DNA of 64,000 nucleotides. Source: an uncultured Pelagibacteraceae bacterium (GTDB taxonomy: Bacteria > Pseudomonadota > Alphaproteobacteria > Pelagibacterales > Pelagibacteraceae). Under the pieces are notes generated by a model. It saw nothing but the letters and a program-made list of their open reading frames with translations. It made no database searches and was not told the origin of the DNA. How positions within the stretch are numbered: position 1 is the first letter of the stretch; every line of letters starts with the position of its first letter. Location: NCBI GenBank assembly GCA_902578255.1, contig CACHCH010000004.1, positions 32,566 through 96,565 of the forward strand, in the 5' to 3' direction. The translations under genes were made by a program, and so were the position numbers. Shown one piece after another: positions 5,490-47,733 of this stretch.

Positions 5490-5600
5490 AACCTCTATTA
5501 TAGGTTGTTGGCGTTTCCGCAAAAACATTAACTTTGCGGTGTCTTTGGAAACAAAGAGATCGACACTAGTCAGCGAGGCTTCGCCCACTAGTGCGATTAC
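5490..5600 (+). ncRNA. Structured RNA / 5' leader upstream of ffh (three to four hairpins)
   Basis: Hairpins read directly: AACCT/AGGTT (5490-5506); CCGCAAA-aacattaac-TTTGCGG (5517-5539); TCTTTG-GAAA-CAAAGA with GNRA loop (5542-5557); ATCG-a-CACTAGT...GCGA-ggct-TCGC...ACTAGTGCGAT (5559-5597). Strand not certain; placed on ffh strand. Confidence 0.6.
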
Positions 5601-5614
5601 TGCTGTGAAAAAAT

Positions 5615-45824: not shown

Positions 45825-46427
45825 TTATTTCTCTATTAAAAATATTCCTAGATTTGCAAAAAAATTTTTAATTGTTAAATTGCTATCATTTATTATTGAA
45901 ACATCCTGATTATTTATAGCCAATGATTTAAAGATTTTGATGTTTCTTGATTTTGCAAAGTAAAAAAAATCCTTTATTGAACACATATGAATATTAGGAG
46001 TATTGTACCACTCATCTGGTAATGTCTTAGTAATTGGCATTGTGCCTTTTATAAGCAAATGAAGTCTGACTCTCCAATAACCAAAGTTTGGAATAGTTAC
46101 AATCGCTTTTTTTCCAACTCTTAAAAGTTCGTTTATAACTAGCTCAGGGTTTAAGAAAGCTTGAAGAGTTTGACTAAGAACAACATATTCGAAAGATTTG
46201 TCTGGAAATTGTTTTAGATCTTTTTCTGCATTTCCTTCAATGACAGTCAATCCTTTTGCAATACACTCTTGTACTTTACTTTTTGATATCTCCAGTCCTC
46301 TAATATTAGTATTTTTATTATTTTTTAAAAACTCCATTAAAATTCCATCTCCACAACCTACATCTAATACTTTTTTATCTTTTTCAATTAATTCAGCTAT
46401 TACTTGAAATTCATTTTTCATAATCAA
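45825..46427 (-). CDS. metW: Methionine biosynthesis protein MetW
   Basis: VLDVGCGDGILMEFL; YVVLSQTLQAFLNPELVINELLRVGKKAIVTIPNFGYWRVRLHLLIKGTMPITKTLPDEWYNTPNIHMCSIKDF; adjacent to metX. Confidence 0.95.
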   Translation of the reverse strand: MIMKNEFQVIAELIEKDKKVLDVGCGDGILMEFLKNNKNTNIRGLEISKSKVQECIAKGLTVIEGNAEKDLKQFPDKSFEYVVLSQTLQAFLNPELVINELLRVGKKAIVTIPNFGYWRVRLHLLIKGTMPITKTLPDEWYNTPNIHMCSIKDFFYFAKSRNIKIFKSLAINNQDVSIINDSNLTIKNFFANLGIFLIEK

Positions 46428-47542
46428 TTTTCTGTATAAGATTTATCTAAAAAGTTTTTAAGCGCACTTAAAAAGTCTGGAACATCTAATAAAAAGGAGT
46501 CGTGACCTTTGTCAGACTCTATCTCAACAAAACCTACATCTGCACCAATAGAATTTAAGGCAATTACAATGTCTTTGTTTTCTTGAGTTGGATAAAGCCA
46601 GTCAGATGTAAATGATATTATAAAAAACTTTGCTCTTGTAGCTCTAAAAGCGTCAGATAAATTACCCTTGTATTGTTTTGCTAAGTCAAAATAATCCATT
46701 GCTCTTGTAATATAAAGATAGCTATTTGCATCAAATCTGTCGACAAATACTGAACCTTGATATCTTAAATAACTTTCTATCTGAAAATCTGCATCAAAAC
46801 CAAATTTCAAATCCTCTCGTTCTTGTAGTTTTCTTCCAAATTTTTCTTGAAGACCTTTTTTTGAAAGATAAGTTATATGAGCAGCCATTCTTGCAACAGC
46901 CAAACCTTTATTTGGGACTGTATTTTTAGATGAATAATCTCCATCTTTCCAATTACTATCAGCAGCTATTGCCTGTCTTCCTAATTCATTAAATGCAATA
47001 TTTTGCGCTGAGTGACTGGACGTACATGCAATTGGGATAACAGTTTTAGCTTTATCAGGAAAATTACTTATAAATTGAAGTACCTGCATACCACCCATAG
47101 AGCCACCTGCGATCGAAAAAAGTTTATATATACCAAAATGGTCAAGCAAATTGTATTGAGCATTAACCATATCGTTAATAGTTATAACTGGAAAATTTGT
47201 ACCAAAAGCAGTCCCAGTATTAGGGTCTTCATGGCTTGGTCCAAAAGAACCCATGCATCCACCAATTACATTTGCACAAATAACAAAGTATTTTTTGGTA
47301 TCAATTGCTTTATCAGGACCAACTGCATAAGACCACCAACCATCTTTCTTTGTTATTGGATTTTGGCCAGTGACAAATTGATCTCCTGTTAATGCATGAA
47401 AAACCAAAATAGCATTATCTTTTTTTTCATTTAATGAACCATAAGTTTCATATGCAATTGGGAATTCATTAATAGTTTTCCCACAATCTAACTTTAATGG
47501 TTTTTTTACTATCAAGGTTTTAATATTATTCTCAGCACTCAT
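46424..47542 (-). CDS. metX: Homoserine O-acetyltransferase (or succinyltransferase) MetX
   Basis: FHALTGDQFVTGQNP; SIAGGSMGGMQVLQ nucleophile elbow; GHDSFLLD. Confidence 0.95.
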   Translation of the reverse strand: MSAENNIKTLIVKKPLKLDCGKTINEFPIAYETYGSLNEKKDNAILVFHALTGDQFVTGQNPITKKDGWWSYAVGPDKAIDTKKYFVICANVIGGCMGSFGPSHEDPNTGTAFGTNFPVITINDMVNAQYNLLDHFGIYKLFSIAGGSMGGMQVLQFISNFPDKAKTVIPIACTSSHSAQNIAFNELGRQAIAADSNWKDGDYSSKNTVPNKGLAVARMAAHITYLSKKGLQEKFGRKLQEREDLKFGFDADFQIESYLRYQGSVFVDRFDANSYLYITRAMDYFDLAKQYKGNLSDAFRATRAKFFIISFTSDWLYPTQENKDIVIALNSIGADVGFVEIESDKGHDSFLLDVPDFLSALKNFLDKSYTEN

Positions 47543-47572
47543 AACAAAGCTAATGTTTGAATTGTGAGAAAA

Positions 47573-47626
47573 AAAACTATTTTAGCGGTTTTTTTTAAGC
47601 GCTCGCAATTCAGTTAAATCAGCGCA
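47573..47626 (-). promoter_or_regulatory. SAM-II-like riboswitch aptamer upstream of metX
   Basis: Minus strand GCGCTGATTTAACTGAATTGCGAGCGCTTAAAAAAAACCGCTAAAATAG; P1 GCGCT/AGCGC, conserved GATTTAAC...ATTGC.AGCGC...GCTAAAA pattern typical of SAM-II; downstream metX. Confidence 0.85.
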
Positions 47627-47631
47627 TAATT

Positions 47632-47660
47632 TTTGTACTAGAACTTATTTATTATGTCAA
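47632..47660 (-). promoter_or_regulatory. Putative sigma70-type promoter for SAM-II/metX transcript
   Basis: Minus strand TTGACA (47660-47655) - 17 nt - TACAAA (47637-47632), ending about 7 nt before the aptamer. Confidence 0.6.
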
Positions 47661-47733
47661 TTTTTTTAAAAATTGTCTTATTCTCTATAAAAATTTGTAA
47701 TTTTATCTATAAAGAGCTCATAAAATTAAAAAA

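Follow-up and report, generated by a model that had tools for sequence, protein, structure and literature searches.

A SAM-II riboswitch before metX-metW in a Pelagibacteraceae genome and conserved downstream strands that may dismantle the aptamer

The window, meaning the whole stretch of 64,000 nucleotides that was analysed, carries metX and metW on the minus strand downstream of a SAM-II aptamer, both genes having been identified with curated protein models. The intergenic region upstream of metX (47543-47733) is 191 nt long and separates it from the divergent neighbour hisC. The genes, the promoter and the parts of the aptamer are listed below.

45825-46427, minus strand: metW, 200 aa, overlapping metX (TIGR02081, 234 bits; PF07021)
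46424-47542, minus strand: metX, homoserine O-acetyltransferase, 372 aa, with the ATG at 47542 (NCBIfam NF001209, 514 bits)
47572-47631, minus strand: SAM-II aptamer (P1, L1 and P2 pseudoknot), matched by RF01726 and conserved across SAR11
47577-47586, minus strand: 3' strand of P2, GCTAAAATAG, pairing with the L1 stretch ACTGAATTGC, with compensatory changes at pairs 15-51 and 16-50
47599-47603, minus strand: 3' strand of P1, AGCGC
47621-47625, minus strand: 5' strand of P1, GCGCT, pairing with AGCGC at 47603-47599
47632-47660, minus strand: predicted promoter, TTGACA (47660-47655), 17-nt spacer and TACAAA (47637-47632), with the start expected at 47625

A sequence-only reading of this DNA had proposed a SAM-II-like element before metX-metW and a covariance search for it; all of the letters that it quoted were found on the minus strand, with the aptamer core GCGCTGATTTAACTGAATTGCGAGCGC at 47625-47599 and CCGCTAAAATAG ending at 47577. 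The search with 4227 Rfam families bore the proposal out, returning SAM-II (RF01726) at 47631-47572 over model positions 1-60 of 60 with 32.9 bits and an E value of 2.2e-4. The related model SAM_alpha (RF00521) scored 24.9 bits at the same aptamer. The match is significant but both scores lie under the gathering cut-offs of 44 and 36 bits, respectively, which are annotation thresholds and not traits of the RNA, so that a default Rfam scan misses the metX aptamer. The sole match of the default scan was the ffh RNA motif (RF01793, originally described from Ca. Pelagibacter ubique) at 5549-5602 on the plus strand with 54.4 bits. The same shortfall against both cut-offs was found for every SAR11 metX riboswitch tested (L001, L112, L115, L139 and that of the window), with scores of 24.9 to 32.9 bits. 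L115 differs at only 3 positions from the sequence that we take to be the crystallised SAM-II RNA and also fails (28.2 against 36 bits), which indicates that the Rfam cut-off is too strict for SAR11. Routine annotation at the gathering cut-offs will overlook these riboswitches.

The position of the element, 83 nt upstream of the methionine genes metX-metW and with a promoter a few nt before P1, is that of a SAM-II riboswitch. P1 (GCGCT/AGCGC) is present and near-invariant within the window's genus, and there is no covariation in it. The core pattern was found in 214 of 297 Pelagibacterales genomes and, for the genus, in 312 of 399 genomes and 55 of the 57 most complete; the reversed pattern, used as a control, occurred in none of the genomes listed. 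No second SAM-II match was detected in the host assembly, which is ~82% complete. By its sequence, minus-strand 47631-47572 is a SAM-II aptamer, and it presumably binds SAM.

The 3' strand of P2 had been called atypical, raising the idea of a SAM-II/SAM-V intermediate. Comparison of 3' strands across SAR11 overturned the first point, the strand being that of a compensated pseudoknot with U-A in place of C-G. At pair 16-50 most other SAR11 genera have C-G and the window's genus mainly U-A; pair 15-51 is mostly C-G across SAR11 with U-A and A-U variants, in a numbering that we take to be that of the crystallised RNA. The change from GCTAAAAAGG to GCTAAAATAG is balanced in the 5' strand, where CC has become CU; the window's genus has ACU/AGU pairing in place of the CC/GG of other genera, and GACU...CAGU is also what the Rfam SAM-II consensus shows. 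The idea of an intermediate, or of SAM-V identity, also fell away: the SAM-V model (RF01826) gave no match here at E <= 10, and the P2 3' strand lies 34 nt from the metX ATG versus about ten nt in SAM-V. A separate, strong SAM-V (81.6 bits) is encoded in the same genome outside the window (L148, G000:C3:2186-2252). SAM-V, also known from the tandem SAM-II/SAM-V of bhmT in Ca. P. ubique, is a related SAM-binding pseudoknot (PMC11508383).

The promoter TTGACA-N17-TACAAA had also been read correctly, the letters being present on the minus strand and the pattern TTGACA-17-TANNNN lying 6 nt before the aptamer core in 119 of 121 leaders of the genus. It was absent from the output of a generic promoter scan of the window because TACAAA lacks the final T. 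The predicted start at 47625 is the first base of P1. The abutment of promoter and aptamer, singled out in the sequence-only reading, is real but is the norm of the class, since SAM-II aptamers usually have a promoter close to consensus a few nt upstream of P1 (Corbino 2005, PMC1273637).

The closest known element is the SAM-II riboswitch before metX (SAR11_0217) of Ca. Pelagibacter ubique, reported in a 191-nt intergenic region by Meyer 2009 (PMC2704228) and repeated by Smith and colleagues (PMC5069961). The class, the gene and the 191-nt length are the same in both, and the window element is very probably orthologous to this riboswitch of HTCC1062. No description of the expression platform of the SAR11_0217 riboswitch was found in the literature searched, including the available part of PMC2704228. 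The leader between the aptamer and metX was examined for such a platform, and contains the following elements, together with their partners inside the aptamer.

47549-47554, minus strand: 3' strand of predicted helix H1, ATTAGC, in the spacer, complementary to GCTGAT
47559-47568, minus strand: 3' strand of predicted helix H2, CTC-A-CAATTC, candidate anti-aptamer element, with predicted pairing of 0.99 and CAATTC in all 121 leaders of the genus
47569-47576, minus strand: U-tract, T8, immediately adjacent to P2, with T6-9 in every leader of the genus
47602-47611, minus strand: 5' strand of H2, GAATTGCGAG, inside the aptamer and invariant in 47 distinct segments
47618-47623, minus strand: 5' strand of H1, GCTGAT, inside the aptamer, the complement of spacer ATTAGC

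The U-tract, which starts 34 nt before the metX ATG, had been noticed and placed at ~30 nt, whereas the conserved anti-aptamer strands had been missed, as had, in a reading made without tools, the terminators of sister genera. CAATTC follows T6-9 in every leader of the genus (121/121) versus none of 54 other SAM-II leaders. It mostly lies within CTC-N-CAATTC, the CTC being altered in only a few leaders, and its complement is GAATTG-C-GAG, an invariant stretch of the aptamer. The varying position is the mismatched one, which is A, T or C, once deleted (L152) and never G. The spacer is otherwise variable, but its complementarity to the aptamer 5' strand (GCTGA) averaged -4.93 versus -2.03 kcal/mol for shuffled sequences over 31 non-redundant spacers (z -10); other strands and controls gave z -2 to -5, and reversed-sequence controls -2 to -3. 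The variants TCAGC, TTAGC and TTGGC fit G-U pairing, and the element ends 6-10 nt before the ATG. Pairing between the spacer and the 3' strand of P2, the antiterminator arrangement of sister genera, was set aside, its complementarity (z -5.4) being weaker than that to the 5' strand (z -10.1). A third helix (H3), between the A-tract and the U-tract, received no independent support, the two lengths being uncorrelated (rho 0.12). The complementarity is a property of the set and is not significant in a single leader, 9 of 10 matches or better arising in 4.6% of shuffles. Because SAM binding fixes the aptamer strands, only one-sided covariation is possible, and the conservation of CAATTC could have a cause other than pairing with the aptamer.

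When 84 leaders were folded to just past CAATTC, the new helix had a pairing probability of 0.99 and P1 one of 0.003, in a calculation of folding energies that ignores the pseudoknot and SAM. The H1 and H2 strands together predict a hairpin that destroys the aptamer. The start region was unpaired with a probability of 0.50 in the SAM-like form versus 0.70 with the leader sequestered; the lower openness, seen in 65 of 102, is not sequence-specific (shuffled 0.53), and a second measure of openness differed little (0.57 and 0.54). Specific pairing of the freed strand with the metX start was likewise not clearly better than in shuffled sequences. With more coding sequence included, the lowest-energy fold of the window reverts to P1 and a hairpin over the start codon, a modelled reversion that hints at translational repression, with an effect that is not sequence-specific.

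The sequence-only reading had asked whether control is transcriptional or translational. The question is real. The window has neither an intrinsic terminator nor Shine-Dalgarno occlusion. No terminator-like hairpin (G+C stem and U-tract, between P2 and the ORF) was found in the window or in any of 87 distinct leaders of its genus, whereas the same rule detected an intrinsic terminator after the aptamer in 29 of 34 distinct leaders of other SAR11 genera. Occlusion was rejected: the P2 3' strand, 34 nt from the ATG, holds no SD-like sequence, and the spacers showed no complementarity to the assumed anti-SD. The terminators of the other genera have the form GCCCAG-TTTAGC-TGGGC-T9 or, in a second family, CCGCC...GGCGG-T9, and the loop side can often pair with the aptamer AGCTAAA as an antiterminator. 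Such a complement was present in 15 of the 34 leaders under a 6-pair rule (shuffled mean 4.6, maximum 12), a count that is suggestive only, many of the leaders being related. In one other SAR11 genus a second, terminator-bearing SAM-II precedes a gene that by eye is metY-like (L083, L086 and L088) and, in L087, a methyltransferase that by eye resembles bhmT or mmuM. In two further genera (L129, L131, L133 and L136-L138) the aptamer loop is much shorter, e.g. GCGAGCCAAACTGCTAAAGAGGAA, and the ATG is immediately preceded by a small hairpin, which may be a different platform that acts on translation.

The layout of the sister genera bears on the idea that the SAM-stabilised P2 pseudoknot itself serves as the terminator stem at the U-tract, the downstream strands only locking the read-through RNA in the unbound form. 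This is rather unlikely. In its favor, T6-9 directly follows P2 in all leaders of the genus, the sister genera stop at T9 just downstream of the same aptamer so that loss of the stem would leave this arrangement, and SAM-II was called transcriptional by Smith 2016 (PMC5069961). P2 is, however, short and A-U rich, L156 and L157 have only T6 followed by GCC or ACC, and the idea does not account for an invariant CAATTC, transcribed later than the U-tract.

The 52-nt sequence that we take to be the crystallised Sargasso Sea metX SAM-II RNA (PDB 2QWY) has an exact match in a SAR11 genome of another genus (L173, G186:C3:53503-53554, minus strand) and, belonging to the same class and gene, differs from the window core at a few positions. 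In L173 an antiterminator/terminator pair, GCCCAGTTTAGCTGGGC-T9, follows the aptamer within a few nt, and the metX ATG lies 2 nt after T9. The 52-nt sequence sits directly before this pair, yet the Sargasso Sea metX RNA is the reviews' model of translational occlusion, described as occluding the ribosome-binding site/Shine-Dalgarno (PMC10907184, PMC9373788). The window has neither this occlusion nor the terminator. Nor does it resemble in this respect the SAM-II RNAs of Sinorhizobium meliloti, likewise at alphaproteobacterial methionine genes and both off-switches, of which that of metZ uses a terminator and that of metA a Shine-Dalgarno inside P2 (PMC9373788). The riboswitch itself has already been reported; what seems undescribed is the replacement of the terminator, in this genus, by a conserved strand that could refold and erase the aptamer.

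About an even chance is given to a SAM-off switch of the metX-metW operon that works by refolding, with its output after the leader is made and translation as the first guess. Transcription would start at the aptamer, which would be complete before the downstream strands emerge. SAM bound during transcription would trap the pseudoknot, while without SAM CTC-N-CAATTC and the AGC-type spacer element would pair with the aptamer strands; the aptamer would be lost to a single long hairpin whose end lies some 6-10 nt from the start codon. With SAM bound, the U-rich strand left free could pair with the A-rich metX start, the most likely route to repression. The anti-aptamer strands are made after the U-tract, and any output depending on them would consequently come later than termination at that tract; SAM would repress metX at a step that follows synthesis of the leader. 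The SAM-II switches that have been characterised are repressing ones (PMC1273637, PMC9373788), which was counted in favor of a SAM-off switch. Counted against the refolding model was that metX is missing from the sulfur-limitation-induced genes named for HTCC1062 (PMC5069961).

An improbable alternative is that SAM makes the single-stranded U8-CUC-N-CAAUUC accessible to Rho or RNase E, which would end or destabilise the transcript, the unbound hairpin hiding the stretch. The stretch is U/C-rich and in the folding is sequestered only in the refolded form, and there are precedents for both routes among other riboswitches (cited in PMC9373788). The opposite sign, with SAM activating metX by opening a hairpin that otherwise closes the region before the start codon, is very improbable. 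Known on-switches have such a layout, in which a strand near the ribosome site pairs with strands of the aptamer, and the spacer element ends 6-10 nt before the ATG; against this, MetX feeds methionine and hence SAM synthesis, the characterised members of the class act in the other direction, and the folding gave no gain in start openness in the SAM-like form.

Returning to refolding as a SAM-off mechanism, a fuller and more tentative version, possible but less likely than not, is that the two downstream strands dismantle the aptamer during transcription, and that this one-time kinetic decision sets the translation or stability of the mRNA, the terminator platform having been replaced, with neither terminator nor Shine-Dalgarno, throughout a dominant ocean genus. 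With a refolding platform, whether control is transcriptional or translational can be put directly to the test. If true, it would be a third SAM-II platform beside terminators and Shine-Dalgarno occlusion, in use across a dominant genus of the ocean.
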